Assembly (NCBI GenBank): GCA_032622095.1
Contig: CP136064.1
Coordinates: 212,488,205 to 212,552,204 of the forward strand
Origin: Siphonodentalium dalli
Lineage: Eukaryota; Mollusca; Scaphopoda; Gadilida; Siphonodentaliidae
DNA: 64,000 nt
Direction of reading: 5' to 3'
Made by a program: the position numbers and the translations under genes. The notes under the pieces were generated by a model. It saw only the letters and a list, made by a program, of their open reading frames with translations. It did not search any database and was not told the origin of the DNA. Position 1 is the first letter of the stretch. Each line of letters opens with the position of its first letter. This document shows, piece after piece, positions 7,801-60,314 of this stretch.

Positions 7801-10800
7801 ATCATTGATGAACAGTAACTGTTCTTAGTAACGGATTAGAGGTACGCATTGTGAACGGAACGTGTACGTTTCGTTTCGGGTAAAATTGCAAGACAGTCAT
7901 TTGTACTTTCGTTTTCACCCATTCATGTCCGGTTGTAACCTTTGTAAATTGGGTTCGTTTTTTACTTATTTTAAACGACGTTTCTGCTTCTATTACAACA
8001 ACCAACAGGACATTCATTACCATTTTATTTAGGTCTATATATTTATAAAATAAACACAGAAAACTAACTATTGAAAAACAAAGAAAAGAAGTAATTTTAC
8101 GTGTACATGTGTCATCTTATTTTTTATTGTTCCTGTTGATTAACAAGCTATAGTGGTTTATTTTATAAATACCCATATTTTCCACTTGCAGATAGACCAT
8201 CTTTATACTTAGTTTTGTTTTAAAACTAATATTTTTATGTTGCTTGACATTGGTCAATAAAGGAAGTCAGTGGCCGAGTGGATAGCGTACTGGTCTCTCG
8301 TGCTAAAGGTCCGGCGATCGATTCCCGGTCGGGTATTCTGACAAAAATCCAAACTTGGTCAGATTACCACGTTGTACGACTGAAAAGTCTCATTCGTGAT
8401 CACACAATATATATCCGAATACAAAACTGACTTCCCTTCACGGCGACATCATGTCCAGGTATGTTGTCGTGAGTGCGGTACGCTGTCGGATCGTAAGCCG
8501 ACATAAATGGCTGACCCGTGTACATGGGTGACTATGTGCAAGTTAAAGAACCCGGCTGTAGGTTAGAGTAGCCCACCAAAGCACCGACCACGATCGAGAC
8601 CCGGAGCCTGTCTGTAATACCCGAAAGGGGAGTTGACAGGTAATTCTAGATAGGTAGATTGGAAGGTATCCAGTCAGTTGTTTTATATTATTATTTAATA
8701 TATTAAATATTGATATATTTGAAAGTTTAAGTTGAATAAAGTGTTCAGGGTAAATAACATGTCCATTAAAAGTTACAAAATTCCAGTGGTGATGTCGTGT
8801 GAAAATTCATACCGGTGTAACAGGATATCTCCCCCCCCACCCTGGATATCTTCCCCCCCATGTACGACTAAAAAATAATTTCACTCATTTGATATCGTTT
8901 GGTTCTGAAATGGCCAGAAAAATGTTTTTTGAGATTAAATTTTTTTTTTTTTTTTTCACGAATTTGATTGTCTTTTTTTTTTTCTTTCAAATGTCCAGGC
9001 TTGGATATTCCACCCCCCCACCCAGCACCTACATGACAAAAAAATCATCTTATGGTTTTATCGCTTATTTTGCTTTATATATTCATGAGTCAGGGTTTGG
9101 GGTGGGGGGAAGATGTCCAGGTCAGGATATCTCCCCCCCCCCACCCAGCACCTACATGACAAAAAATAATCTTATGGTTTTATCGCTCGTTTTGCTTTAT
9201 ATAGTCAAGAAACAGCGAGAAATTAACTTCTTCTGAGAACAAGTTGTTGAGTCAGGGTTTGGGGTGGGGGGGGGGGAAATGTCCAGGTCAGGATATCTTC
9301 CCCCCCCACCCAGCACCTACATGACAAAAAAATAATCTTATGGTTTTATCGCTCGTTTTGCTTTATATAGTCATGAAACAGCGAGAAATTAACTTCTTCT
9401 GAGAACAAGTTGTTTGAGTCAGGGTTTGGGGTGGGGGGGGGGGGGGAAGATGTCCAGGTCAGGATATCTTCCCCCCCCCCCCCACCCAGCACCTACATGA
9501 CAAAAAAATAATCTTATGGTTTTATCGCTTGTTTTGCTTTATATAGTCATGAAACAGCGAGAAATTAACTTCTTCTGAGAACAAGTTGTTTGAGTCAGGG
9601 TTTGGGTGGGGGGGAAGATGTCCAGGTCAGGATATCTTCCCCCCCCCCCCACCCAGCACCTGCATGACAAAAAAATAATCTTATGGTTTTATCGCTCGTT
9701 TTGCTTTATATAGTCATGAAACAGCGAGAAATTAACTTCTTCTGACAACAAGTTGTTTGAGTCAGGGTTTGGGGTGGGGGGGGGGGGGAAATGTCCAGGT
9801 CAGGATATCTCCCCCCCCCCCCCCCACCCAGCACCTACATGACAAAAAAATAATCTTATGGTTTTATCGCTTGTTTTGCTTTATATAGTCATGAAACAGC
9901 GAGAAATTAACTTCTTCTGACAACAAGTTGTTTGAGTCAGGGTTTGGATTGGGGGGGGGGGGGGGGGTAGGATGTCCAGGTCAGGATATCTCCCCCCACC
10001 CAGCACCTACATGACAAAAAAATAATCTTATGGTTTTATCGCTTGTTTTGCTTTATATAGTCATGAAACAGCGAGAAATTAACTTCTTCTGAGAACAAGT
10101 TGTTTGAGTCAGGGTTTGGGTGGGGGGGAAGATGTCCAGGTCAGGATATCTTCCCCCCCCCCCCCCACCCAGCACCTGCATGACAAAAAAATAATCTTAT
10201 GGTTTTATCGCTCGTTTTGCTTTATATAGTCATGAAACAGCGAGAAATTAACTTCTTCTGACAACAAGTTGTTTGAGTCAGGGTTTGGGGTGGGGGGAAG
10301 ATGTCCAGGTCAGGATATCTTCCCCCCCCCCCCCCACCCAGCACCTACATGACAAAAAAATAATCTTATGGTTTTATCGCTTGTTTTGCTTTATATAGTC
10401 ATGAAACAGCGAGAAATTAACTTCTTCTGACAACAAGTTGTTTGAGTCAGGGTTTGGGGTGGGGGGGAAGATGTCCAGGTCAGGATATCTTCCCCCCCAC
10501 CCAGCACCTACATGACAAAAAAATAATCTTATGGTTTTATCGCTTGTTTTGCTTTATATAGTCATGAAACAGCGAGAAATTAACTTCTTCTGAGAACAAG
10601 TTGTTTGAGTCAGGGTTTGGGTGGGGGGGAAGATGTCCAGGTCAGGATATCTTCCCCCCCACCCAGCACCTACATGACAAAAAAATAATCTTATGGTTTT
10701 ATCGCTCGTTTTGCTTTATATAGTCATGAAACAGCGAGAAATTAACTTCTTCTGACAACAAGTTGTTTGAGTCAGGGTTTGGATTGGGGGGGGGGGGGGT

Positions 10801-13800
10801 AGGATGTCCAGGTCAGGATATCTCCCCCCCACCCAGCACCTACATGACAAAAAAATAATCTTATGGTTTTATCGCTCGTTTTGCTTTATATAGTCATGAA
10901 ACAGCGAGAAATTAACTTCTTCTGAGAACAAGTTGTTTGAGTCAGGGTTTGGGGTGGGGGGAAGATGTCCAGGTCAGGATATCTTCCCCCCCCCCACCCA
11001 GCACCTACATGACAAAAAAATAATCTTATGGTTTTATCGCTTGTTTTGCTTTATATAGTCATGAAACAGCGAGAAATTAACTTCTTCTGAGAACAAGTTG
11101 TTTGAGTCAGGGTTTGGGGTGGGGGGGGGGGGGAAATGTCCAGGTCAGGATATCTTCCCCCCCCCCCCACCCAGCACCTGCATGACAAAAAAATAATCTT
11201 ATGGTTTTATCACTCGTTTTGCTTTATATAGTCATGAAACAGCGAGAAATTAACTTCTTCTGACAACAAGTTGTTTGAGTCAGGGTTTGGGGTGGGGGGG
11301 GGGAAATGTCCAGGTCAGGATATCTTCCCCCCCACCCAGCACCTACATGACAAAAAAATAATCTTATGGTTTTATCGCTTGTTTTGCTTTATATAGTCAT
11401 GAAACAGCGAGAAATTAACTTCTTCTGACAACAAGTTGTTTGAGTCAGGGTTTGGATTGGGGGGGGGGGGGGGGGGGGTAGGATGTCCAGGTCAGGATAT
11501 CTCCCCCCCCACCCAGCACCTACATGACAAAAAAATAATCTTATGGTTTTATCGCTCGTTTTGCTTTATATAGTCATGAAACAGCGAGAAATTAACTTCT
11601 TCTGACCTGACATCTTCCCCCCCACCCCAAACCCTGACTCAAAAAACTTGTTCTCAGAAGAAGTTAATTGCTCGCTGTTTCATGACTATATAAAGCAAAA
11701 CAAGCGATAAAACCATAAGATTATTTTTTTGTCATGTAGGTGCGGGGTGGGGGGGGGGGGTGGAATATCCAAGCCTGGACGTTTGAAAGAAAAGAAAAAA
11801 TTTGAATTAAAAAAAAAAAAAATTCTGGTCATTTCATGAACAGACAATCAAATTCGTGGAAAAAACTAATTTTGTCACCTTTTTTTTTTTTAAATAAAAA
11901 AAAAATTAATATATATTTTTTTTTAATCTCCAAAAACATTTTTCTGGCCATTTCAGAACCAAACGATATATGAGTGAAATTATTTTTTAGTCGTACATGG
12001 GGGGGGGGGGGGGGAAATATCCAGGGTGGGGGGGAAGATATCCTAGGACATCTTCCCCCCCGGGGGGGGAAGATGACGTGTTACACCGGATAGAACAAGC
12101 CCGAAGGGAGTTTTTTTTTTTTTTTTCCCTCCTCCATCTACATTTTTTTGGGTCCCATGTTCGTAAACCAACTAATTAAATTGGTAAGGCCTTATTTAAA
12201 AAAAATAAAAATAATTTTTTAATTATTTAAAAAATATATTTAAATTTTTTTTTTATTATTTTATATTTAAATTTGTTTGTTTTTGTTTTGTTTTTGTTAG
12301 ATTGAGCAAGGAATAAAATCAATTTTTTTTTGTTTAATTATTTTTAAAAAATATTTAATTATTTATTTTTGTTATTTATTTAATTGTTTTTTTTTTGTTT
12401 TTTTTTTAGATTGAGCAAGGAATTAAATCTATTTTTGTTTGTTTTACTATTATTTTTTTTTTTTAAGAGTGAATATTTTTTTTAAAAAGGGCCATAACTC
12501 AGTTAAAAATAGTCGGATCAAACCCATATTCGAACTCGATCTGTCTTTTATGCCGAGAAATTCATATACAAAATTTGGTTCCGATCAGATATAAAATGTT
12601 CGAGTTATCGCACCATGCATAAAGTGTCTACAGACAGACGGACGGACGGACGGACTGACTAACGACGAGTGGTCAATCCGGACAACAACACTATGTTTAC
12701 CATACTATGGTATGGGTAAACATAAAAACTATCTTTGGTGACAAGGAAGCCTCTTTCACAGAAAATACATGCTTCCTTGTTATCAATGATATTTTTTCTT
12801 AGTCACATAGTCATATTGAATGATAAAATGAGACTATCTGGCCATTATCTGTTGAGGTAAAAACATGGGAGGGGGGGGGTAAACTAGGAAATAAAAAAAA
12901 AACATTCTGAACTGTAACGCCAATGTCGAAGAAAAAAACATGCTTCCTTGTCACCTATGATAGTTTTTCTAAGTCACATGGTCATCTTGAATGATAAAAT
13001 GAGACTAACTGGCCACTGGTATCAATTGTAACCAACTCTCCCTCCCTCTCCCTCTCTCTCCTCCTCTCTGTGTCTCTACTCTCTTGCCCCATTAATATGC
13101 CCCATCCCTCTTTCTGCCCCCTTTTATTCTGTATCAATATTGATAATTAATTTCTGAAAAAAATTAAAAATTTCCAACACTTCCCGCACTTAATTGAATT
13201 AGCTTACTGGTAATTGAATTCATCACAGAGGAGAAGACTTACTTGTGGTCTAATCCTCTTTTTCTATATATACTATCTTCTTCTATTATATCATTTTATC
13301 TTCAATTGTATGTTTAATATCTGATATTGGAAATAAAAGTTTAAAATAAAAGGAAAAATAAGTTTACACAAAACATACCTGACTTAGATTCTGTCTTCCC
13401 TGTTGGAAACATCCTACGGTATATAGTTTCTTCTACAACCTTGAAGTTTGTCATATCCCTATAAATAAGAGTGGAAACGAATAGACTTCTCTTCCTGTAA
13501 TATTTATGAATAACGAATAATAAATAAAGACTATCGGGGTTTGTGCTGCCGTTTGCTAAATGTAAAACAAATCTAAATTTGGTTAAATTTTTTTTACATA
13601 TGGTAAAATATTCGGTAAGTGTTATATTAATTCCTCAAAATAGTACAAACTATTAATTAAAAAAATGGTTAATCACAACATCCATGTGATGAAATCCCAT
13701 ACCACAATTTTGTCGAAGTGGCTTATGAAAATAGGGGCATGAAGGTGATGTTCACCGAACTAATCCCTTTATCCTCTTTCTTTCTGAAGGTGCCGAAAAT

Positions 13801-22800: not shown

Positions 22801-25800
22801 ATTAGGAATGTGGAAAGTTGAATGTCTAATACTAGTTTATAGACATGAAGAGAAAAGTAAAATCCAAGATGGCTGCTGGCGGCCATGTTTTCGGCCGAAT
22901 GACCCCAAAATGAGTCGTTCCCATCTACATTTCATCGTTAACATCCATGACAAATTTTATGACGATCAGACTAAAGGTACGACCTGTAGCCCATGCTAAA
23001 GAATTTAGTCATACAAAGAGTAATTTCCAAGATGGCTGCTGGCGGCCATGTTTTTTGGCCGTATGACCCCAAAATTACTCGTTCCCATCTACATGTCAAT
23101 ATTATCATCCATGACAAATTTCATGATGATCAGACGAACAGTACGACCTGTGGCCCGTGCTAATGGATTAAATTTTTTAATCCAAGATGGCCGCTGGCAG
23201 CCATGTTTTTTGTCCGAATGACCCCAAAATGACTCGTTCCCATCTACATTCCAATTTCATCAACCATGACAAATTTTATGATGATCAGACTAAAGGTACG
23301 ACCTGTAGCCCGTGCTAAAGGATTTAGTCATACAAAGAGTAAAATACAAGATGGCTGCTAGCGGCTATGTTGTTTCGGCCGAATGACCCCAAAATGACTC
23401 GTTCCCATCTACATTTCATTATTAACATTCATGACAAATTTCATGATGATCAGACTAAAGGTACAACCTGTAGCCCGTGCTAAAGGATTTATTCATACAA
23501 AGAGTAAAATCCAAGATGGCTGCTGGCGACCATGTTTTTTGGCCGAATGACCCCAAAATTACTCGTTCCCATCTTCATGTCATTGTTAACATCCATGACA
23601 AATTTTATGATGATCAGACTAAAGGTACGACCTGCAGCCCGCGCTAAAGAATTTAGTCATACAAAGAGTAAAATCCAAGATGGCTGCTGGCGGCCATGTT
23701 TTTTTGGCCGAATGACCCCAAAATTACTCGTTCCCATCTACATGTCAATATTATCATCCATGACAAATTTCATGATGATCAGACGAACAGTACGACCTGT
23801 GGCCCGTGCTAATGGATTAAATTTTTAAATCCAAGATGGCCGCTGGCGGCCATGTTTTTTGTCCGAATGACCCCAAAATGACTCGTTTCCCCATCTACAT
23901 TCCAATTTCAACAGCCATGACAAATTTTATGATGATCAGACTAAAGGTACGACCTGTAGCCCGTGCTAAAGGATTTAGTCATACAAAGAGTAAAATCCAA
24001 GATGGCTGCTGGCAGCCATGTTTTTTGGCCGAATGACCCCAAAATGACTCGTTCCCATCTACATGTCATTATTAACATTCTTGACAAATTTTATGATGAT
24101 CAGACTAAAAGTACGACCTGTAGCCCGTGATAAAGAATTTAGTCATACAAAGAGTAAAATCCAAGATGGCTGCTGGCGGCCATGTTTTTGGGCCGAATGA
24201 CCCAAAAATTACTCGTTCCCATCAACATGTCAATATTAACATCAATGACAAATTTCATGATGATCAGACAAATAGTACGGCCTGTAGCCCGTGCTAATGG
24301 ATTGAATTTTGAAATCCAATATGGCCACTGGCGGCCATGTTTTTTTTCCGAATGACCCCAAAATTAATCATTCTGGTCTAAATGTTGATGTCAACAGCTA
24401 TGACAAATTTCATAATGATCCGACCAAAGGTACGACCTGTAGCCTGCATTGTTGACGCCTTACGTACACACGTACACACGAACACACGGACGACGGATGA
24501 CAAAGCCATGGCAATAGCTCAAACTTTACAAAGTAAAGTTGAGCTAAAAATGCATGCCCATCAGTCAACAACCCATCACACACCTGTGGGCGATTGAGAC
24601 AGCAGTCACTTCATGGTCACTTTTCACAGGGATATGTTAGAAACCATGTGTTTTGAACACTAATGACCATCAATATTTATGTGCATTAGTGATAAAAACA
24701 ATAAAACAAAAAAAAAAAATTTATTTTTAGAAAATTTATAATTTTTCTCAGAATATCAATAAAAAGATTAGGGTCGGCGGGTTATTTTTACGGTCGGTCG
24801 ATGTACGGAAACATAGCATCTTTTTTTTTGGCCTTATCAAAGTATTCATTGGAAAAGTCTATTATTCATTTGAAGGGTTGTTCAGAAAAAATTTACCAGA
24901 CAAAAAGATCATACAAGTGCAGCTCTAGGAATTCATATTCTTTGGTGGTAAATATTCAGACAATAAGTTCAACAAACAGCCTATCATGGCCATTTGTTGA
25001 ACTTATTAAATGTATCTGAACATTATCTGAGGGAACTACTCAATGAGTATTTATTTAGCAAAGAAAGGTTTTAATAAGTGATCGCTAGAGTGCCTAAAAT
25101 ACTGAAAATTATCTCCCATCTCTCAATTTGCACATGAATATACTTGTTAATATAACATTACCTTTCTGTATTTAGAAAATGCCGCTTTGAACTGATTTGT
25201 CTTAAAATACTGCATGGCTTCCTGGAATAAAAATTAACGATTAATAACTAATTTCATTATATCACAAGTTGTCCACATAGTGGAATGTCGACATGCGAGT
25301 ACACCCTTAACCCTTTGAGTGACACGGGCCGATCTCATCGGCCCTAATTTACGGTGTGTAAAATCGGCCCTAAAAAAAACACTCTGAGGCGTAAACGATG
25401 AGAACGGAAATCTGTCGGAAATTGATACGAATCGGCGTCTCTGGCGTCCAGAAATTACCCCCACACCGCTCTGGTAAATCGACATTTTGGCCCCAGAGGC
25501 GTAAACGACGAGAATGGGAAATCCATGGGGTTGAATTTTTTTCGGGTATGCTTAAGCATGCTATAGCGAATTTAAAAACAAACTGGATAACACCTTAGGG
25601 GCATGTTATAACTTAAAACTATCACCAAATATTCATAGTAATAATTTTGATGCCCATAAAAAACATAAGATTCCCTGGCACTAAACCTACTAAATATACC
25701 TGTTAAAGAATATAAGAAAAAATTATCAAAATTGTCAAAAATTGTCAAAAATAATAACAAAAGATGAAAAATTGTTAGGCCAATGCATTCTCTTATATAT

Positions 25801-28800
25801 GCGAGGCGACCTATGGTCGACTCGCATATATAAGAGAATGCATTGGCACAGGGTATATGGGTTGATACAAAAATCGGACCTGGCACTCAAAGGGTTAATG
25901 CATGTGTAGAATGAAGCAGTCACAGTATATAACCAGTTGTGATTGACCCCCTCCCATGGCACCTGACGCATGAAGATTACTATAAACAGGGATTTTTCTG
26001 TCTATTTTGGGAATGGGTCCGGGTCCCTTCGAATTGGGAAAAATGTGTCTTTTACAGACCAAAATTGGGAATTTTCCATGTTTTAGAAAAAGCCATGGAC
26101 ACCAAACTTCGACAAGTATTTACTGTACATGTGTTTTATATAAATCAGCAATTTATTTAGAGTTATCCTCCCTCTTTCATAAATGCGCTGACTGGTAGAG
26201 GGGAGGTAATTCGCAGTTAGGTCGCCGCGTGTACATTATACGATGCGGGCTCCCGCTGATTTACTACGGGTTTTCAGCTGTTTATCGATCGACTGAGTGT
26301 ACAAAACATCGGAAAAAATTGATAATTATTCAATAAGCCCAATGGTATTATATACCTGCCTGCAATTGGGAATTTGGTGGTTGAAAATTGGGAATAAAGG
26401 TGCCTTTTTCACATTGGGGATGGGGCCGAATACCGGACCCTGAGGACACCTAAAAAAATCCCTGATAAATGAGCATCATTTTTATCATGTAACAACCCAA
26501 TTATTGAAAACTCCCCACCAATGTCATCATCTCATAACTTCATCTGTCCCTTCTGGTCTTCTAGTTTCTCCTCTCTCGCTATATCTCTCTCTCTCTCTCT
26601 GCCTCCTGCTATCCCTAACACTATCTTCTCCATTTTCTTCCATCCCCAACTCAATTTCAGTTATATATCTCCATTTCTCCTAAAAAACAGTATTTCCAAC
26701 TCTTCCCTTCTGACCTATACCACTCCCTCACTTATTGGGGATGGGGCATGTAGCCAAAGAGGAGAAGACTTCATATAAGCCCTCCGGCTTGTTGTCTGAT
26801 CCTCGTTTCCATACATAACTCTTCTATTTTGCATATATGTGTCATCTGTATATTATGTTATTTGTTTGGATTTGGAAATAAAAATATGTTTACATCAAGC
26901 AGTCACAGTAAAATCAACCTTGCTCAAGGGTCACAAATATGCACAAGATTTTAACAGTGTGTAATTGTAGTCCCGCAGTCTGCGGCTGAGCGTCAATTAC
27001 AAGCCAAACATTCTAACCATTCAGCTATCAAGCTCCACATAACTAAATATATAATAAAAACTCACCTCTCGCATCCCCCTCCAGACTTTCTTTATGCCAT
27101 CGTAATTCACTTTTCTTCTTTCTGCCTGTAATGATTTGGATAATTGTTTTATAATCTAGACTAATAATAAAAGTTGAAATTGTTTTTTTTTTAAATGCCC
27201 TGTCCGATTTAAAACATATAAATTAATATTTCTTGGCTTCGGGGTGGTGAAAATTAGTTGATTTGTGTCGAGGAAGATCAGAGCTATTTGATTTTTATTT
27301 TTTATATCTATTTATTCTCCACCTCGATTTCCATATATGGTTCGAACTGCAATTCCCTAGTACGTGTCATCACAAATGAAAACAAACATTTTCATTCTCG
27401 TGTGATCCATTTTAATGCATAATACAGTATTTCTGAATCAGGAATAAGTATCCACATGCCAACTATGACAAGATATTGTCCATATTGATTCTGAAGATAA
27501 ATGTTCTTTGTCTTTTATATATGAGAATCATTTCAATCACAAAAGCCACCGCTAACAAGAGACATTGAGTGACCTCCTAAACATAATTACGTCCGTATAT
27601 ATTTCCAGTGGATTTTTTGCTAGGCTGATAATAATTCGAGGTGTAGAAAATAAAAATAAAAAAATAAAAATCTAATAGCTCTGAACTTTTAAGGGTGGGT
27701 TTCTTGACTCAAATAAAATATATCCCCCCTCCCAAGCCAAAGGATATAGTAATTTAGGGTGTTAAATCATACAAGCAAGCTTTAACTTTAACTTGCACAG
27801 GGTGTTGAGATGAAAACATTCTATCAAACAAAATATTTTCCACATACTGCAAACTACTTAAAGGGTCATACTTTAAAAAGTCGTACAATACCAGGATCAA
27901 GATTCAAGACTTGGCATACAAAGTCAAATATAAGTGTTTCATGTATTTATCAATCTATTTGGTACAGAACGTGGCAAGTGCATGCAATTAAACTATTTTC
28001 TTTACTTCCTATTCATAGTTAATAAGAACTTACTTCAGTCATGAAGAAGTATTCATCCATACCCTCTTGGTCGATGAAGTCTATCACTTCGATGTCGAAT
28101 AGCACTGAAAGAAAAAGTAGGAATAAATTCTCTTAAAACTCTTGATAAAACATTTCTTTCTAAATACTCATTGGCAAGTAGTTAGGAAATGTTCAGATAA
28201 CAAGTTCAACAACGGCTTGTTGAACTCATAACCTCAGATTTTCCATCCATGAATAGCAATCCCTGTGCACTTTTATTATATTATCTGTTGTATGATAATA
28301 TATCTGAACAACCTCAAACTTAGTAATAAACCATGTAGGCTCCACAATTGTGCCATAGAAAAAAAAATTAAAATGAACCTTTCAGTATTTTCCCTGCAAC
28401 CTCAACCCTTTGCAATGTAATGGATGCTACCAGTCCTATCAATTTCTTTAAGAAAAAGTAGCTAGTGTCGACAATGATGCAACTGCATTAATCGCAGCTG
28501 AAACGTGGCTTTTCTAAATAAGATCGGGCGATTTTTACTGTTTGTGCTGTACCCACTGAACTGCTGAACAACTCTTTGAACTGCTGACCTGGCATGGCAG
28601 GGAGTCAAAGTGCATCACCTCGTCATCTTAGAGTAAACTCCCTTGATCACACACGACAGGCACAACCTTCAACCAAATTACTTCATTTTAATTCAGTTGA
28701 ACTGAGTTCACTCGAATCTGCTGATCAGCACTTCAGTATGTAAACTGCTTACCAGCAGCTGATCAGCATCTTTATGATACACAGCATATGGTCCAAATTT

Positions 28801-31800
28801 GGGCTAAATCATATCTATTGATGAAATGTTATAGACACGCGAAAATCATGACAGAGATACAGACATTGGGTAGAGATATTTCTCCCCAATTCAATATGCA
28901 TTCTGTGCACACACTCCATAGTATTACAGTACGAGACTATGAGTATCCAATAACCATCCATATGGATATTTTAGTAAAAGTAATCAAAAAGTAATCAAAA
29001 TGTAATCATGATTACAGGTACAATTAAATGTAATCGATTACGATTAATTGTAATCAAGAAATGTCATGATTACTGATTACAGGTTATTACTAAACAATTT
29101 GTAATCGATTACTTTGATTACGATTACTGATTACAATTACCCCAACCCTGATGCACTGTCCTATATAATTTAAACTTAAGTAAATGCATGGCATGGTTTG
29201 TTTTGTTTGTTTAGTTAGGTTTTAGTTGGTGCAGTTGGGATAATTTCATGGCAAATTTTTCAGAAAGTTTATCATCTAGAATTGAAGCTTCATCCTCGAA
29301 TTTATGGATTCATTGAAAAGCACTTATCTAGTGCAAATACCTGTTTATTTTGTGGGAAAAGGTTATATTAAAGTACTTTTGGACACTTCCTAAAAAACAA
29401 CTATTCCTTGTTTTCAAAATAAAATCCCTGTTCTCTATCAAAGTGAATCTATTTGAACCAATAAGCCAGTGAGCAAGCCTTGAAATAGGGTGTCTGTCAT
29501 TTGCAGAATGAGGTCCCCAGAGGGTGAATTTAGTGATGCTACCCCGCATAGTGGGCTAGCATCACCAAATTCACCCTCTGGGGACCTCATTCTGCAAATG
29601 ACAGACACCCTATTTCAATTCTTGCCAGTGAGTGTACTATATTTCTGTTTTTGTGAATTTATAAGGATGCAACAACAATTTAATTTAGTTTTTAAAAATA
29701 TTTTCTTTTCAAAAACATGTATTTTAACCAAATTCTGAGGTATGCATTATCTCTGTTTTAAATCCAACAGTAACGCTATTTAAGAAACAATGTTTGAAAA
29801 CAGTCAGACAACTAAAACTAAAGTTATGACCCAGATACCAAACTAATTGGCAAATTCTAAGTCAACAAGAACCATAACTCCGGCAAAAGTGGGTGGACCG
29901 AATCCAAATTTAAACTTGATCTGTATTTCCATGTGGGTAATCCATATACAAAATTTGAAAACAATCAGATACTAAAACTAAAGTTATCACGCAGAAACAA
30001 TCTGGGATGGACGGACAAATAGCTATTTGTAGTCTTGAAATCGGGGATATATAAAAGTTAATACTAAATAGATCATCTTTAACCCTTTGAGTGCCAGGGG
30101 CCGATCTCATCGGCCCTAAACCTACAATATAAGTCTGTTAAAGAATATAAGAATAAATTATTAAAATTGTAAAAAATTTAAAAAAAAAAAAAAAAAAAAA
30201 TTGTTAGGCCAATGCATTCTCTTATATATGCGAGGCGACCTATGGTCGACTCGCATATATAAGAGAATGCATTGGCACAGGGTATATGGGTTGATACAAA
30301 AATCGGACCTGGCACTCAAAGGGTTAAATGGAATGGTTTATAAAATAATACCTTCTGCTTGAGCTGGGATTCTGGGAGGACATCCCATTTTACCATAAGC
30401 GAGATCAGGATGTATGATGAATTGTGATAACTCGCCCTTTCTCATGGTTGCCACAGCTTCATCATAGCCAGGGATTACATCACCTAAAAATAGTACATTG
30501 AGAGAAAACTTTAGGTTTAAATGGATTTGAAACCAATTGTTACTGCATGCACATTATTAGATGTGGAAACAGTATCTGCTAGATAGCCTGTCTAGTAGTT
30601 TCAACAAGGACTAGATAGCGAACTAGCAGGGTTTTCGCTAGACACAACCTAATGGGGCAACTATGGTTTGCCCTGTTAGGAGAAACTTTGGGTTTTTTTC
30701 ATTAACAAGTAACCTATTCCTTGTATCTGTGCTAACCAGAAAGCAACTAAAAAACTTTGGAAATAACGCCAGTTGAACCTGGACGCATCCTGTTTCTATC
30801 TGTGGTCCTTGCATTTCCATTGCATTTAGTACTCTTACACATGGTATCCAGATATACTGTGAAATAGCACACTTTACATGAAAGTAAGTCAACCGGAAAA
30901 ATGGCCAAAAAAAGCAAAGCCGCTGAAAATGAGTTGTGATAGTTAGGGCACGTGCCATAAATGAACATATGTGTTATGGCAAGAAACAGTGGCTACACTC
31001 CTGTTGTTAACATGATTGTTCTGGGGCTAACAGCATATTATTGGCTCTCCGACTTCAATGGGAATATCTTTGCATTTATTCTCAAATCATGCTATGGTTG
31101 TGATGACTACTATATGAATATCAATGGGTATGAATCCTTGCTATACATAATTGTGACATGTTCAGTATTATTATGAAATGCTCTTTATTACTTTTTGGTG
31201 TGTGCTGCCATTTTCAGTCATTTTCAGTTTCCATAATAGCTAAATGCAATTAATGACAAAATTAAAATTAAACGATTGTTTCTACCCCCGCGCCTTTGTA
31301 TGAAATGAATGCTGTCCTGACAATTTATTTAAGAGATGTTGATAGTACAAACAGTGATGTAACTGTGTTAATCCATATCCCATGCCCAACCTATAACTTA
31401 GGGACGAGGCTAAAGTGTGGATTCTTCACCCAATTCTGACTCACTTCGCCCTAATTTTGCAGTCTGACGAAAATCGGCAAAATGCCAAATTTACTTGGCT
31501 TACAACTGCCAACAGTGATTGTATACAATTATCCACTGTTGGGGAGTTATAGAAACACTATATTGATCCAAACTTCCCTCCTCTAACCAGTAATAGTTCT
31601 GGTTTGAAATAGGTGTTATGATATAAATGAGGGCAGACTAACGGTCAAATGTCAAGAGTTATCAGCATTCAATGGCAACAACAATAATTTCTATACATAC
31701 CATGACCGACTCTCAATCTTTGAGGTTCATTTCTCAGCCGAGTGGAATCATACGGCTCATCATTACACTCAAGAAATGCATTGTGATGAACTGAAAAAGA

Positions 31801-39569: not shown

Positions 39570-40810
39570 ACTAATGAGGGAAAGAATTATGTCCGTGGCT
39601 CTTACCCTATTTGACCCAGTGATCCAATTCTGAATCAAATCTGAATCCTAGTCACCCATACCAAATATAAGTTGAATAGGCCTGATGGTTCTTGATAGGA
39701 AGACATTTTAAGAATTAGATTGGATGGACAAGTTATGTCCCTGGCTCCCCCTTTATTTGACCAGGTGACCTCATTTTAACACATCTGTATCCCCATCACC
39801 CAAGGAGCTTCCACACCAATTATAAGCTAAATAGCCCCGTTGATTCTTGAGAAGATGTTTTAAGAATTATTATGGATGGAAAGAGTTAGTTCCCTAGCTA
39901 CGCCATTTTTTTGACCATGTGACCCCCATTTGAACAGAACTGAATCCCAGCCACCTAGGGACCACCCATACAAAATATGTCTCCATTCTTCATCTCAGGT
40001 AAGCTAAGAAAAATGCCTCCTTCTTTCCAATTCAGTTTCCCATATGTAATTGCCTGAGAGAACAGGTATTTAGTTTTACTGGCCTAACTGTCAGATTCAT
40101 CATTGGGAGTTTGTTATCATAAGCCATAGGTCATTTATAGACAAACTCTCTAACATACAGAGAATTTTAGGATATTAATCAAGGAGCTGTCATTCCAATC
40201 AGATTTTGTTAACACTGCCATTTCATTTATTACTTTATAATCAATATGACTTCTATATGGTGTTAAGTAAACATTCTGTGATTGCAGGCACCTTCCTCAT
40301 ATCTCACAGAGCTCTGAGTATCTGCTGTTTGCATGTTCTTGATTTTAGACTGATTTAAACCAAATTTGGTTGAGTCACCCTGGTGGATGTTATAATGGTG
40401 TTATTTTGTTTTAATTGAGCAAGAAATTAATCTCAAATAAAATAAAAATAAATTTAAAAAAAAAAAATTGAACAAGGAGTTCAATCTAAAAATTTTTTTT
40501 TTTAAAGAGTTGTGTCCCTGGCTCTGCATCTATTTGACCCAGTGACCCCATTTGAACAAATCTGAACCCCAGTCACCCAAGGACCCTCCATACCAAATAT
40601 AAACTAAATCGGCCCAATGGTTCTTGAGAAGTCATTCTAAGATTTTCTATGGAGGAATAGAGTTATGGCCCTGCTTTCAGAACTATTTGACCCAGTGACC
40701 TCATTTGAACAAATCTGAACGTGAGTCACCTAGGGAACATCCACACCAAATATGAACCCATTCGTTCTTATGGTTCCGAAGAAGATGTTTAAAGAATTGT
40801 TGACGGACGG
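39570..40810 (+). repeat. Tandem TTTGACCCAGTGACC-type repeat block
   Basis: About five units of 140-150 bp share GAGTTATGTCCCTGGCTC, TTTGACCCAGTGACCCCAT, AATCTGAACCCCAGTCACCC and CCATACCAAATATAAGC. Interrupted at about 39990-40500 by unrelated AT-rich DNA. Ends in GACGGACGG. Confidence 0.75.
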
Positions 40811-40830
40811 ATGGACAGACGGACGGACGA

Positions 40831-41321
40831 ACAAATGGGTAGATATGTGGCTCCGACCTATGTGGCTAGAAATGGTAATGTGGCTTTAGTTTTTATGTGG
40901 CTTCTCAAGTAGCCATAAAATTTTATGTGGCTATCAAGTAGTAGATAGTGATAAAACTCCAGATTATGGATTCATAACATGTTGGAATTATAGCAGAAGA
41001 AGCTGATTAAAACTCAAAAACTTGCACACAGCAACTGGGACAGTGGAATGGGAGAAACTGACAGGTCCGTGATTGGGTGGCTAGCCACATAAGTGTCCGT
41101 CAGTGTCCGACATCTCCTATTGACAGGTCATGGATGTCTAAATCTATGGACTTTTTGTTTCCAAATTTTGAGTGACTACAAAATTAAATAAGCTGATTAG
41201 GACAAATAGATCATTTTTGAACGTCCATCTGAAAGCTGTTACATGGCTAGCCACGCAACGGAAGTTATGAACATAAATATCCATTTTACACAATCTTAGC
41301 CACATAAGTAGTCATTAGTAA
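40831..41321. mobile_element. 490-bp element inside a GGAC microsatellite, copy 2
   Basis: Near-identical to the copy at 22.15 kb, with the same end points. It again sits in GACGGACGGACG repeats, but those belong to a different host repeat family (ending GACTATAGCTCCACCGG). Confidence 0.8.
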
Positions 41322-41442
41322 GGACGGACGGATGGACGACGGACGAGGAGTGATGACTATAGCTCCACCGGAGACTTCATCTCAGGTGAGCTAAAAACAG
41401 AACAAAAAGAATTATTATATGGGCATCCACCTGGGACGGCAT

Positions 41443-42084
41443 CTGGAGAAGTAGGCCCCATGCGAAGTCGGCCCCAAAGAAATTTGATTGAGTTAGTGTT
41501 CAAGTTGCCTAATTAATTGTAAAGTCATCAACTTAATTTGACTGAGATAGTGTAGTGTTTATGTAGGCTAATTGTGAAGTCCGCAATGTTTTCTTAGTTA
41601 TAACAACAAAAAGAAACACACCTAGATCCTGATGAAACGATTACTCAATCCACGCCGGCCAATACGACATGTCTCCAACACGCCGTGATGACAATCCAAG
41701 ACCATCATTGGAAACGTCGTACAGAACGCTAGACACCCTCAAACACCTGACATGCCCCCTTCAACCTGTCAAGTTCCTTTGAGCAACCAGCCAGTCAACA
41801 ACCAGCAACAGAGCACCTCGTCAGATCTCCAACTGAGACACTGATTTGATTTTTCCCAACTGATGGCCATTTGAGTCCAAACATTTTACCGTAATTTGGA
41901 TAGTATTCGACTTAAATTGGTCCAAAACAATTACTTTCATTTGTTATGTTATTTTGTGATTATTATTGTCATATCATAAGATAAATAAAGAATGAGTTTA
42001 AACTATGGCCGACTTCTCTGGGGCCATCTTTGTATGGAGCTCTCTTCGTATGGGGCCGACTTCATGCGGGGCCGACTTCTCCTG
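41443..42084. mobile_element. Element with inverted subterminal GGCCGACTTC units
   Basis: The left end CTGGAGAAGTAGGCCCC is followed by GAAGTCGGCCCC. The right end has GCCGACTTCTCTGGGG, GGGGCCGACTTCATGC and GGGGCCGACTTCTCCTG. The unit is tandem at each end and opposite in orientation. The 640-bp interior is AT-rich without an ORF. Confidence 0.7.
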
Positions 42085-42219
42085 TATTCCCTGGGACAAG
42101 TCACCCTAGACATGTGAGACAAGTCAGTCCGAAGTCGACCCAAAATCACTGCCGGGGCATGTTGTCTTCGGCCCGAGTCCTCACAGAACCCTTTAATACG
42201 GTTAGTCGGTTACACTAAT

Positions 42220-43858
42220 TGCAGCAAGTCCCTAGAAATGCAGCAAGTCCCCTAGAAATGCAGCAAGTCCCTCTAGCCAAGGGTGGATTACGCGGATTAG
42301 TGATGCGTGTTTACACAACCATATGTTTAATCAGTGGAGGTGCTGATTACAAAGGGCTTTGTTCATCATCAAAGGACTTTCATTTTATCGATATGCTGAT
42401 AGATTATTGAAGAGAATTGGACTGAATTTGGAGACTGAATGATAAAATTAAGAGTTGGATTTTTTTTCCAATTTTTTTATTTATTATTCTAATTATATAA
42501 ACGGTAACTGATATATATGAATACACATACACATAATTTTTATTAAATAGTGAGATAAAAGAAATAGCAACTTAATAAATCTTTGAAAAACTTTTATTTT
42601 ACAGTTAAAAATCTACAAATACCCATCTTAAATAATTATAAAGGGATGAAGAGTTCCAATCAACTATAATCAACTGCCACAGATCATAAATCAAATGGAT
42701 AATTAAACACTGATTAAACTCGAATCCCGGACATCTCCCCACCGGACATTTCCCCACTTTCAAAAGCAGACATTTCCCCACCCGGATATTTACCCACACA
42801 GACATTTACCCACTCGGACATTTACCCACCGGACATTTCCCCACCTAATAAAATGCTTTATGCTACATCCTTTATCACAGACATCGAAGAATGTTTTGAC
42901 TGGTCAGTGAAGCCTGGTCAGTGAGGCCAACTCAAGCGATGTCAACTCAGCCGATGTAATGTTTTGACAAACTTGAAAACGTGCAAACATGAAAGAGTGT
43001 TTTGACGATAGTTTGGGACATCAACGCAGTTGAAACAATGTTGTGACAATTATGATCACAGTATTAATTCTAGTGAGTGAACTCTAGACAGCCTATATAA
43101 CTTTAGCAAAGAAATTAGATAAAGAGCATTCATCGTTAATTTGCTTATTCAAAAATATATGTGCAAATTTCCATTTTATAAAGAGCATTTAATTTGATAT
43201 TTTTTCTGAAGAACAGAAATAAAGATCTCGATCTGCTACCATAACCAATGATAAATGACTGAACACTTGATATACATGTATCTTTAATTACTTTAATAGA
43301 CAATGGTTAAAACCACCAAGTATGAGAAAAACATATTAATAACAGATTTAACACGTTCATCGGTAAATACCCAATTATTCAAATAATGAATGTGTATATA
43401 TATATAGTGAATAATTGTAATATTTTTGTTCTTTATGTAAAAACAGTTAACAGCAGCACACAACATTACCATGACAGTGACCAGACATAACTTGGACTTT
43501 CCGCTCTGTACAAAGGCACTGTTGGCCATTCCATTTGAATTAAGAAAGGTTAAGTGATGTGTTATGTATGGTTACCATTTGTTGTTGTTGTTGCTGTTCC
43601 ATGAATTTTTTATTGAAATAAATTTGATTTTACCACACACCCATAGTAATAATCAGTCAAAGGTGGGGAAAAGTCCGATTTGATATTGAGTAAGTGGGTA
43701 AATGTCCGGGTGGTAAATGTCCGGGTGGGGAAATGTCCGGTTACCATTAAACTCATCAACAACTCCACTAATCCACCCTCAATTAGAGGGACTTGCTGCA
43801 TTTCTAGGGGAATTGCTTCATTTCAAGGGACTTGCAGCATTTCAAGGGACTTGCTGCA
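42220..43858. mobile_element. Element with two nested sets of inverted subterminal repeats
   Basis: Outer set: three TGCAGCAAGTCCCTAGAAA-like units at 42220-42277, and the inverse GGGACTTGCTGCATTTC units at 43790-43858. Inner set: CGGACATTTCCCCACC and CGGACATTTACCCAC units at 42729-42846, with the inverse GGGTAAATGTCCGGGTGG at 43694-43744. AT-rich interior, no coding region. Confidence 0.75.
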
Positions 43859-43859
43859 T

Positions 43860-44657
43860 TTAGGTAAACCCCTTTGATAAGGCCAATATAAAAAAAACTG
43901 CTTGATTTACATCCCCTCCTGACCCTATTTTTTAATTAGTCCCCTCATAAATTTTTTTAATTTTGGTTATCTTTTAATATGTAAACTTTTTTCTCATGCC
44001 TTAAACCTTCAAATTACATTTCAATGACCATTTTTGCATTAATCAGTCTGTTTTGATCAAATTGGACTTGTAATCTAAATCACCTTGTAGGCCTACCGGT
44101 GCTTCAATATCGAGAACTGTCCTTGACCATTTATGTTAGGAAGAATGATATATAAAAAATAAATTTGACCTCCTGCCCCATTTTTCTGAAAAAGTTGGAA
44201 ATAAATCTAGCAATTTATTTATATTGGCCTAAAGTTTGAATTGGGGCCCTTCACCTACCGCCGCTACCGGTACAGCGAACTACATTATTGAGGGCCAGAC
44301 ATTAACTAAGTAATATAGTAATGCTAGGGCCTGACGAAGCTTCGAGATTCGATTCGATTTCGAATCTTATGTTCCGATTCGATTCGAAGCGGTCGTGTGA
44401 TTCAGGATATTTCGAAACGTTGTATACAAGTCCTTTATCACTGGGAATAGAATGCATTATATATCCACAAAACATTCATTATATCCCCAATTCTTAACCT
44501 GAGGCTCCTTCCGCGACCATCTGGGACCTCCGTGGTCCAATGTGTAAAGGGTAAGTTGTCCAATAGCCCACTGCTCATATATATATATTGGCCTCCCATT
44601 CCCAGCACTGGTTACTCGTGGCAGGTCGGTGGGTTACTCGTGCAACCTGCTGGTAGG
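43860..44657. other. Unannotated DNA before the hAT-like element
   Basis: AT-rich, with a GATTCGATTCGA segment near 44345-44395 that recurs near 130-210 and 59605-59690. It may be the end of an old element; the right copy ends TCGTCGGGCCCTAATT. Confidence 0.5.
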
Positions 44658-44665
44658 TCTGTAAT

Positions 44666-45626
44666 CAGTGTTCGCGCTGTCGGTAGCCAAATTAGCCAAT
44701 GGCTATTCTTTTTCGAATTTGGCTAATAAAAATTTCATTTGGCTAAACTTTTGGCTAAACTTGTTTTGACCCCGCCAAATGGAGACTGAAAGCATGATTT
44801 TTTGGCAAGTGGGTTTTCGTTGTGAACGATCTAGTCCGAAAACATCGTAAGTGGGAATATATCGCCGACTGTACAAAGGGAAACCCGATCGCGGACAGTA
44901 CAAAGGAAAACCCGTCACTCTGCACGAAACAGCAAAAGGTCATTGTTTTACATTTAATCCGCTAATCCCCCATTGTCTGTCTGGTTACTGGCAGGGCTCC
45001 TGCACAAGGCATGTTTATAGTGAAATTGTATTTATGACGGTCAAGGTTTATGAGCACCAATTGTAAGACAATAGCTTAATCAGCCAAATGTGAATCACGA
45101 CAGATATTTTGCGGCTATATGTCGTCAATACCGATGCATTCAAAATAATATGCTTTTACGACAGATTGTAATTTGATAATGTGGCGTAAAAAGTTATTAG
45201 TTTCCAGATGTCACTTAGATATTTTCGCAAGGATAATTAATATTTATTTACAAAAATATATTGATATAAAACAAAAAAATAATGACATTAAAAAGGACAA
45301 TCCCTGGTTACCCCCCCCCCCCCCCCCCCCCCCAAATCGTTCTTTCACATAAAGATTAATAAATGTTTAATAAATGATATATATATATATAAATATTTTT
45401 AGTTCATAAAAATCAGTTAAATTATTATGTATTTTACCTGTGTCTGTTAGATTTGACGTTTTAGTCATTAATTGTGATCCAACCACAAAACGATGATTTA
45501 ATTTGGCCATAGTTTTTTTTAATTTGACCAAAAAACATTTGGCTAAAGTTTTTTTCATTTGGCTAATATAATTTACATTTGGCTAAACTTTTGGCTAAAG
45601 TTTTTTTCGGTCCAGCGCGAACACTG
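44666..45626. mobile_element. Non-autonomous hAT-like element with 8-bp target duplication
   Basis: TCTGTAAT is duplicated at 44658-44665 and 45627-45634. Terminal inverted repeats are CAGTGTTCGCGCTG and CAGCGCGAACACTG. Several direct TTTGGCTAA motifs cluster near both ends (44720-44760 and 45537-45600), like hAT subterminal binding sites. The interior includes a C-tract near 45310. No transposase. Confidence 0.9.
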
Positions 45627-45743
45627 TCTGTAATGGTTCGGGTGTTCATCACGGTTGTACCATAATCGTAGCACACACGGGTTTCCTCCACCACATAAAA
45701 CCAGCAATGTCGCGATTTTGCCCGGCCCCAGCTGCGGAAGCGA

Positions 45744-46598
45744 GTGAATTTGTTGTGGGACATACATTGTGGGGTAGGAAAGAATCAGTACAAAAGTTTT
45801 ACTTGGCAAAAAAAAGACTATAAGCGCGCGATACAACGCAAACACAGAAAATTCAGGGAAAATTTAATAGCGCAACTACAGAAAATGGAAACATCCGACA
45901 CATCTGCCTTTTGGAGATCAATTGATGAATTAACATCTGGTCGTAATAAACAAGACAACCTCTTGCGCGACTTATCCGTCGATGATTGGGTCGCGCATGT
46001 AAAGCAATTAATGTGTGGAGACCCCCCTTCGTGTAGTGAAGAAGATTATACGAATATCATGAACCATACCGATACACTCAACAGAGTTCCGGTCTTGGAT
46101 CGTGAAATCACACCTGAGGAAATTTTGCATGCGGCAACCAAATTGAAAAACGGGAAAGCTTCTGGCATAGACCTAATTTCCAATGAGATGATCAAATCCT
46201 CCATGGCGGTTATGTTACCATGCTACGCTAAACTTTTCAACTCTATCCTTTCCAGCATGCAATTTCCTGATCTGTGGCGACAAAACATAATGACGTATAT
46301 CCATAACGGTGGTGCAACAAACACCCCTAACAATTTCAGAGGACTAGCCATTTCGAGCTGTCTTAGCAAGTTCTTTTGCAAGATTCTTGACGTAAGACTT
46401 GAAAATTATCTCGCGGACAATCATATAATTTCTCCATGTCAGATTGGGTTCAGAAAATCTGGACGTACCAGTGATCACATATTTTCGTTACACACCATAG
46501 TTGATAAAATTCTGTCCCAAAAGAGACGTCTGTACTCTTGTTTTATCGATCTAAAAAAAGCATTCGATAAATTTTGGCGTGACGGCGTCCTTAAACTA
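45744..46598 (+). pseudogene. LINE ORF2 piece: reverse transcriptase N-terminal half
   Basis: Open for about 285 codons. It carries LKNGKASGIDLISNEMIK and FRGLAISSCLSKFFCKILD, then QIGFRKSGRTSDHIF and LYSCFIDLKKAFDKFWRDGV. KASGID, the RGLAI box and FIDLKKAFD are reverse transcriptase blocks 1-3 (FIDLKKAFD is motif A with its catalytic Asp). The frame stops where a 4.1-kb insertion begins. The true 5' end of the LINE, including its endonuclease, is not visible upstream. Confidence 0.9.
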
Positions 46599-47259
46599 GA
46601 GGTGTGACTGTCCCAATGGGACTACGGATACCCCCCTGTTTTTAAAATACTAAGATGTTTCACATGTCAGTAAACATTTAGTTAAAATAATAAAATAACA
46701 GTTCCCATTGCAGGTGTACAACCATAACCTTAATCTTAAACCTATTGACCAAAAAATGTAAGAATAAAAGCTTGGACAAAATTATGTATGTTGCGGAAAA
46801 AATTATAAGTCGAAAAAGGGGAATAACTCCACACAAAATATGTCGGACAGACATCATAATCGCAGGTGCACAGGTTCCCATGGTACTAAATATCAGTGCC
46901 AAGATTAAACAAGACAGTCAATGACTGTGGGGTCGCTCACCAGACTGCAAAGACTGATAAGACTGGGACTCTGGAGACCAAAACAGTCAGCACTTTTCAT
47001 AATCACTTTAAAAGAAGTAGATTTAAACAGGATATGTGGCTAGAGAGACTTCAAGTATGTAGCTTGGTAAAAAACCACCTTGAAATTGCCAACTGTACAC
47101 TACTGATCACCCCCCTCCTCCAGCTCAACAAGTCCCCTCCCGACCGGGATCCAGACTCCCAAGTCTTAGGTTGGAATTTCACAACCGACACCTCAAACTT
47201 TCTCAATTGTTGGAAATTTCCAATCTCACAAGCGCCTTTTTCTAAAACCATTTAAACAT

Positions 47260-47908: not shown

Positions 47909-49030
47909 TTCCCCAGTTGAAGTTGGTGATATTCACCCATTGGGCACCTCATTTATGAATTTTATCTTCTGCAAATTAGGGGATATAGAAACTTCCTAGA
48001 AGGGAAATTTAACTAACAACAATGTAAATTTGATACTATACTCTATAGATACTTCCCAGAAGATGAGGCCTAAGCAGAATGAGGTCGCCAGAGGGTGAAT
48101 TTGGTGATGCTAGCCTGCTGTGCCGGATAGCATCACAAAAAGCGTGTCTGTTCCTACATTGTGTATGCCTGGCCTCAAGCAACACAATGTATTATACAAC
48201 AAGCCTTGAAATAGTGTGATAGTGTGTCTGTCATTTGCAGAGTGAGGTCCCCAGAGGGTGAATTTAGTGACGCTAAATTCACCCTCTGGGGACCTCATTC
48301 TGATAAAGTCCTCAACTGCTATGGAAGACCTAGAATAAAATTGAATTTCCCCCAGTTGAAGTTGGTAATGTTCACCCATTGAGCCCCTCAATTATGAATT
48401 TTATCTTCTGCAAATTAGGGGATATAGAAACTTCCTAGAAGGGAAATTTAACTAACAACAATGTAAATTTGATACTATAGATACTTCCCAGAAGATGAGG
48501 CCTAAGCAGAATGAGGTCCCCAAATGGTGAATTTGGTGATGCTAGCCTTGAATCAAGCTTTGAAATAGTCTGTCTGTTATTTGCAGAATGAGGTACCCAG
48601 AGGGTGAATTTAGTGAGGCTATCCTGCACAGCGGGCTAGTATCACTAAATTCACCCTCTGGGGACCTCATTCTGATAAGGCCCTCAACTGCTATGGAAGA
48701 CCTAGAATAAGATTGAAGTTCCCCAGTTGAAATTGGTGATGTTCACCCCATTGGGCACCTCAATCATGAATTTTATCTTCTGCAAATTAAGGGATACAGA
48801 AACTTCCTAGAAGGGAAATTTAACTAACAACAATGTAAATTTGATACTATAGATACTTCCCAGAAGATGAGGCCTAAGCAGAATGAGATCTTGAGACTCT
48901 AGATACTTCCCAGAGATGAGGCCTAAGTGGAATAAGGTTCTCAGAGGGTGTATTTGGTTATGCTAGCCTGCTGTGTAGGATAGCGTCACTAAATTCACCC
49001 TCTGGGAACCTCATTCTCCAAATGCCAGGC
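47909..49030 (+). repeat. Three direct copies of a 370-440-bp repeat with foldback cores
   Basis: CCCCAGTTGAAGTTGGTGAT and its variants start copies near 47909, 48349 and 48718. Each ends in a foldback made of AATGAGGTCCCCAGAGGGTG and its inverse. The foldback is the same as at 2289-2437 and 29475-29618. Confidence 0.75.
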
Positions 49031-49429
49031 ACTCTGAGAAAATGAAATTAATCTGATTTTAATGACCACTGAGTGATAATGTAAACAACAAGGGTGCTTC
49101 ATTGATAACACCATTAATCTCATTTAAATTATGGATGACATGAATACACTCCCTGGGGACTCTGCCTAAGGCTGCAGAAGCTATCTTTATCTCTCTATCT
49201 GCCTTGCCATGTGTCTATCAGTTCATAGGAGAGTTGCCTTGTAATGGGAATTTAAAAAACAAACAAACTTTATTTACCTGTGAGTTAGGATATGAGATAG
49301 GGTGGAATGCTGTTGGTTGGGGGCAGGGTGGGGTTCTGGGTCATGTGGGGGGGGGGGGGTGATATTTTTTTTTGTATGTTAAATTGATCAAGGAGTTCCT
49401 GAGTTTTTTATTATTTTTTGGGGAATTAT

Positions 49430-60271: not shown

Positions 60272-60314
60272 AATGAGACAAAGTTTAAAAAAAAGAAGCT
60301 GGATAAACACGACT

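Follow-up and report, generated by a model that had tools for sequence, protein, structure and literature searches.

The stretch 41430-43879 of the 64-kb window (the whole stretch of Siphonodentalium dalli DNA that was analysed, 64,000 nucleotides) holds three insertions and not two. With good confidence, we regard these elements, A, B1 and B2, as non-autonomous transposons of the foldback type, each of which inserted on its own by a cut-and-paste route; the enzymes that moved them in trans were most likely Mutator-like (MULE) transposases whose genes lie elsewhere in the genome. What can be seen directly in this stretch are the inverted arrays, the nested layout and, for A and B2, the symmetric tips and the exact direct repeats of 8 and 9 bp, respectively, that bound them. 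The 'terminal tandem array' plan, on which the earlier note had based a class of transposons, is the foldback-type plan known from Mutator-like elements.

Ends and target duplications of elements A and B2

The ends of A, B1, B2 and of a further element, C (the 8.8-kb element), were set by eye first and tested afterwards. Element A consists of the following features.

41438..42089, no strand: element A, foldback-type, non-autonomous, 652 bp, with inverted arms, symmetric target duplication (TSD) and a single-strand fold
41430..41437, + strand: left TSD of A, CCTGGGAC, exact copy at 42090-42097
42090..42097, + strand: right TSD of A, CCTGGGAC, 8 bp, exact match to the left copy
41438..41478, + strand: left arm of A, 7-bp tip GGCATCT followed by two GGCCCC-ending units (by eye)
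42005..42089, - strand: right arm of A, 4.6 units of period 16 at 42007-42079 (72% matches), then the end of the outermost unit and the 7-bp tip

The word CCTGGGAC occurs twice in the 64-kb window, both strands counted, and these two occurrences are the two ends of A. Between the TSD and the first shared word, GGAGAAGT, a non-repeated tip of 7 bp is present on both sides. The unit is about 16 bp long and reads GAAGTMGGCCCCATGC on the left and its complement on the right, with about 2 units on the left (counted by eye) as compared to 4.6 decayed units on the right. In the window-wide census, blastn by itself placed the arms of A, and the 8-bp TSD lies at -7/+7 from them. A is the sole element that was folded; its single-strand fold has a z of -5.31, and none of 20 shuffles folded equally well.

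The second element with an exact duplication is B2, which is located inside B1.

42722..43745, no strand: element B2, inserted in B1, 1024 bp, with symmetric 9-bp TSD and inverted arrays
42713..42721, + strand: left TSD of B2, ATTAAACTC, exact copy at 43746-43754
43746..43754, + strand: right TSD of B2, ATTAAACTC, 9 bp, exact match to the left copy
42727..42846, + strand: left array of B2, 15-16-bp units (CCGGACATTTCCCCAC) in runs of 2.1 and 4.9 copies
43661..43740, - strand: right array of B2, 3.0 units of period 15 (43694-43740) and one separate unit at 43662

As in A, the duplicated word ATTAAACTC is found twice in the window on both strands together, at the two ends of B2. The end arrays carry GGACATTTCCCCAC and are unequal in the number of units (about 7 on the left and about 4 on the right), and a non-repeated tip of 5 bp leads from the TSD to CCGGACAT on both sides. 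The TSD of B2 is absent from the list of the automatic census because the left arm called by blastn began 42 bp inside the true end while the search was limited to 40 bp.

Short tandem units in opposite orientation had been reported by the earlier note at these termini, and inverted arms made of such units are indeed present in A (41445-41476 and 42051-42082, 32 nt, 84%), in B1 (42217-42308 and 43751-43842, 92 nt, 82%, blastn E 3e-20) and in B2 (42764-42846 and 43661-43742, 83 columns, about 80%, blastn E 1e-14). The AT-rich interiors proposed at the same time are seen in B1 (GC 0.261 at 42310-42712) and B2 (0.319 at 42850-43655) as compared to 0.376 for the window, but not in A, whose interior (41480-42004) has a GC of 0.377.

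The lengths of the duplications were compared to random site pairs drawn from this window with the large tandem arrays excluded. With free sliding of up to 10 bp, 39 of 4000 pairs had a repeat of at least 8 bp and 10 of 4000 one of at least 9 bp; with symmetric sliding of up to 10 bp the numbers were 44 and 19 of 40000 pairs, respectively. This null replaced an earlier one that had been inflated by the tandem arrays, in which sliding of up to 15 bp gave at least 8 bp in 0.66% and at least 9 bp in 0.52% of 20000 symmetric pairs, and in 3.2% and 1.5% of 3000 free pairs. The window is rich in short tandem units (44 Tandem Repeats Finder rows, some of which overlap), and one could therefore imagine that no transposons are involved and that minisatellite-like arrays were inverted by local rearrangement or hairpin replication. 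Such an origin is hardly credible given the direct repeats, exact and symmetric, that flank A (8 bp) and B2 (9 bp).

No stop-to-stop frame of at least 120 aa is present in 41438-43870 which, together with the exact TSDs placed symmetrically about the arms of A and B2, supports the proposal of non-autonomous transposons with terminal tandem arrays. Nine of the ten frames of at least 120 aa in the window were scanned against Pfam and contained no transposase; matches at E <=0.01 were found in three of the nine, namely a reverse transcriptase, a weak zf-RVT (below cut-off) and a BSD domain. Within A, B1 and B2, decayed pieces of a transposase may be present. When the A, B and C regions were used as blastn queries, no second copy of A, B1 or B2 was found in the 64-kb window. 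A match between 43392-43423 in the interior of B2 and 62653-62684 (32 nt, 84%, E 0.002) is TA-rich and was set aside as low-complexity, and the A-region query also gave a 20-bp match at 41380-41399, outside element A. The double unit of B1 had 0 matches in viral contigs, and that of B2 had 0 matches in viral contigs and 0 in the prokaryotic collection; such an absence is expected of a eukaryotic repeat and says little.

Insertion of B2 within B1

The stretch 42220-43858 had earlier been taken as one element with one kind of unit outside and another inside. The more fitting reading is of two insertions, one nested in the other, with B2 residing inside an outer element, B1.

42199..43869, no strand: element B1 (outer), exact ends uncertain, with inverted arms
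42189..42198, + strand: candidate left TSD of B1, CCCTTTAATA, one mismatch to its partner
43870..43879, + strand: candidate right TSD of B1, CCCTTTGATA, one mismatch to its partner
42217..42308, + strand: left arm of B1, 2.8 units of 20 bp (42220-42276) and a non-tandem stretch (AGGGTGGATTA)
43755..43861, - strand: right arm of B1, 3.9 units of 19 bp (43787-43861) and a non-tandem stretch

Both sets of arrays are inverted around one common middle, as would be expected if a single element carried two concentric sets. That arrangement is nevertheless improbable, since an exact 9-bp direct repeat edges the inner arrays on their outside, separated by 5 bp from the first unit of either array and found nowhere else in the window. 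The inner arrays are also placed very unequally within B1: the gap between inner array and inward-facing edge of the outer arm measures 10 bp on the right and 418 bp on the left. Because the TSD of B2 is located at their outer edge, the inner arrays are most simply no part of the B1 ends and B2 is the later arrival. According to the nested reading, B1 would have inserted first and B2 later within it, and the nesting thus orders the ages of the two elements, B1 being the older. After removal of B2 and one copy of its TSD, B1 measures about 640 bp, which is near to the 652 bp of A.

The exact ends of B1 are uncertain because the candidate TSD is imperfect and the tips are unequal, differing in length between the two sides. 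The candidate copies agree in 9 of 10 positions, a likeness equalled by 3% of 1500 random site pairs. For B1 the automatic census gave nothing but a piece of B1's own unit. The number of units differs between the ends of B1 as well (2.8 in the left arm, 3.9 in the right). The left tip of B1, CGGTTAG (42199-42205), lies beside the weak 10-bp duplication and agrees in 6 of 7 bases with the motif A1, CGGTTAA, given for Tm1 (PMC3169594), possibly by chance; CGGTTAG occurs 2 times and CGGTTAA 5 times in the window.

Element C, the kinship of end units and other repeats

Element C had been described as having the same plan as the other elements.

8812..12089, no strand: element C (8.8-kb element), with the 11-bp terminal inverted repeat CCGGTGTAACA, subterminal units with G/C runs and an inner 169-bp array

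The repeat CCGGTGTAACA is present at 8812 and its complement finishes at 12089, and short units with G/C runs are located near both ends. The middle of C, in contrast, is a tandem array of 14.9 copies of 169 bp, and no direct repeat of at least 8 bp with up to 1 mismatch was found about the ends with sliding of up to 12 bp; the flanks share a weak ATA on both sides. C resembles A, B1 and B2 in style but not in duplication. Part of the census rows are given for 8000-12500. In the census as a whole, several of the rows that carry candidates belong to other repeats. The 169-bp unit (about 15 copies) holds an interrupted palindrome of G/C runs, GGGGGGAAGATGTCC...GGATATCTTCCCCCC. It is possible that C is a case of a transposon turning into a satellite.

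In sequence, the end units show no significant likeness from one element to another. Of 300 shuffles, the observed score was reached by 281 for A and C, 248 for B1 and C, 300 for A and B1, 295 for A and B2, 285 for B1 and B2, and 24 for B2 and C. The last comparison was ungapped, between the arms of B2 and the pieces 8813-8880, 9086-9254 and 11985-12090 of C, with a best score of 15; as 24 of 300 shuffles match this score, a common origin of the B2 and C units is not claimed. The pattern GGAYATYTYCCCC was considered as a sign of kinship, having 32 matches in the window against 0.01 expected, yet all 32 are within C and the excess therefore reflects only C's own repetition. Since the unit sequences of A, B1, B2 and C are not significantly alike, they give no ground for assigning all four elements to a single transposase. 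A more far-reaching and doubtful proposal is that the four are unrelated terminal-unit systems in one animal genome, each of which evolved inward-pointing subterminal arrays ending in C runs, and that C, which shows no 8-10-bp duplication, may use another transposase; this would reflect selection acting convergently, across superfamilies, in favour of iterated arrays that bind transposase, with the units of C turned satellite.

Several other repeats and genes are present in the window. A 545-bp repeat with GGACGGACGG at its edges is found at 40802-41346, directly left of element A, and at 22120-22667, the copies being 94.5% identical. Two copies of a short hairpin repeat, near-identical by eye and in the same orientation, are located at 25775-25890 and 30200-30330; they contain a long palindrome, CCAATGCATTCTCTTATATATGCGA and its complement, and the inverted pair appears in the census. 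A tandem array with a 164-bp unit (about 9.8 copies; periods of 329 and 484 were also called) covers 22856-24444, and overlapping inverted pairs, 77-92% alike, are clustered at 48058-49035. A retrotransposon reverse-transcriptase fragment (Pfam RVT_1, E 9e-8) is located at 45699-46607, and the long open frame at 60273-61670, in which a BSD domain was matched (E 1e-14), is probably a host gene.

Class assignment and comparison with known systems

Long inverted ends made from short tandem units are known from FB of Drosophila and TU of sea urchin, to which the present elements are likened by structure and not by sequence. The foldback features, namely inverted terminal arms of tandem subunits and unequal numbers of units at the two ends, are present in A, B1 and B2 alike. 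An 8-bp TSD by itself also fits hAT or P-type elements; the TSD of A (8 bp) has the length known for hAT, while that of B2 has 9 bp. A search for target duplications had been advised by the earlier note, and within the 8-10 bp of MULEs they are exact in A and B2; B1 has a candidate alike at 9 of 10 positions, and none was found for C. TIRs of more than 100 bp are typical, though not universal, of MULEs, according to the Aedes survey (PMC5225508). With their tips, the arms measure about 101-116 bp in B1 (aligned part 92 nt), 125 and 85 bp in B2 (83 nt) and about 41 and 85 bp in A (32 nt), and the short arms of A are a point against the MULE reading. Further points against it are that neither a transposase nor a further copy of A, B1 or B2 was found in the window, that the duplication of B1 is imperfect and its tips are unequal, and that no 8-10-bp duplication was found for C.

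A minor chance is left to a transposase from another superfamily, either hAT or the P type known from Galileo, that makes 7-9-bp duplications; the tandem ends would then have arisen by convergence. Galileo, of the P superfamily, is described as having internally repetitive long TIRs (PMC3573991), and foldback-like ends accompany different transposase classes, as stated in the Tm1 paper (PMC3169594). The 9-bp TSD of B2 speaks against this alternative, and short subterminal units of 12-16 bp with short tips are closest to the MULE cases as these are described (PMC5225508, PMC3169594). We infer, with reserve, that the superfamily is MULE, that the units have a role in binding and that the partner acts in trans. 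By analogy, the terminal arrays most likely consist of repeated binding sites for the transposase, and we propose that the units are oppositely oriented because each end must offer them to the transposase facing inwards. The transposase would cut at the tips and insert with a stagger of 8 or 9 bp, the repair of which would give the flanking duplications, while the number of units at each end may drift independently through slippage or unequal exchange.

The earlier note recognised no described family. At the level of class this is not supported, since the foldback-type MULEs Muta1 (PMC5225508) and Tm1 (PMC3169594), as described, share the plan. That the end units of A, B1, B2 and C are not significantly alike might suggest an undescribed class of transposon, defined by terminal tandem arrays and with an enzyme of its own; this is very unlikely, as Muta1 and Tm1 are reported to have the chief structural traits of A and B2 (PMC5225508, PMC3169594). 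The anatomy of A and B2 is close to that of these two elements, and the architecture of A, B1 and B2 is therefore already known, the three being probably further non-autonomous members of the foldback-type MULE kind. They may represent unrecorded sequence families, which is routine in animal genomes. Exact ends and duplications are now given for two elements, A and B2, which would make it straightforward to search the host genome for copies and an autonomous partner.

Muta1 of Aedes aegypti is described as an active Mutator-like element of the type2 Foldback kind with 8-9-bp TSDs, whose end consists of a 10-bp terminal motif and nine 12-bp subterminal tandem repeats with 3-4-bp spacers, and which has more than 300 putative non-autonomous derivatives, often varying in unit number and interior (PMC5225508). 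The same report gives subterminal tandem repeats of 9-15 bp for 10 of 12 long-TIR Aedes MULE families, and for Muta1 and Muta5 an anatomy, with 8-9-bp TSDs, that is very similar to that of A and B2 (PMC5225508). Like A and B2, Muta1 and the Aedes MULEs described there have 8-9-bp TSDs and a short terminal motif followed by subterminal tandem repeats (PMC5225508). In contrast to Muta1 as described, A and B2 have arms that are shorter or further decayed, the units are 15-16 bp (A and B2) or 19-20 bp (B1) long, and no transposase was seen in the window; the likeness is one of anatomy and not of sequence (PMC5225508).

Tm1 of the root-knot nematodes (Meloidogyne) is presented as a Mutator/Foldback element with 13-15-bp units, 7-bp non-inverted tips and TSDs of 8-10 bp, mostly 9 bp, in 45 of 53 cases (PMC3169594). 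Short tips between the TSD and the tandem units, and numbers of units that are unequal from end to end, are common to Tm1 and to A and B2, and the Tm1 paper also describes a nested inverted-repeat element, comparable to B2 in B1 (PMC3169594). The unit sequence of Tm1 differs from those of A, B1 and B2, and its Tm1-HH members bear a histone hairpin (PMC3169594), for which 40400-45000 gave no Rfam match at E <=1; the sole match at that level is unrelated and far below its gathering score. The Tm1 / Phantom subclass is marked by a FLYWCH zinc finger, a MULE transposase and the Tm1 end motifs; A, B1 and B2 are without a coding frame.

Tetris of Drosophila virilis resembles A and B2 in being a non-autonomous foldback element with 8-10-bp TSDs, and the expansion of its tandem repeats into satellite arrays, as reported, is comparable to the 169-bp array of C (PMC4079207). 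C differs in that no 8-10-bp TSD was found, and the Tetris unit is given as about 220 bp (PMC4079207). In Galileo the tandem repeats of the TIRs are said to grow and shrink at either end independently of the other and, for one subfamily and citing work then submitted, have been proposed as secondary transposase-binding sites (PMC3573991). Unlike the units of A, B1 and B2, the tandem region of Galileo is described as about 210 bp per copy within TIRs of about 300-1200 bp (PMC3573991). Pearl-family elements of bivalves (DTC84, CvA) are likewise short, non-autonomous and tandem-repeat-bearing, but their repeats are described as satellite-like and internal and not as short units in inverted arms (PMC5139131). 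MULEs themselves are reported from every genome that was analysed in a survey of molluscs (PMC10294476).
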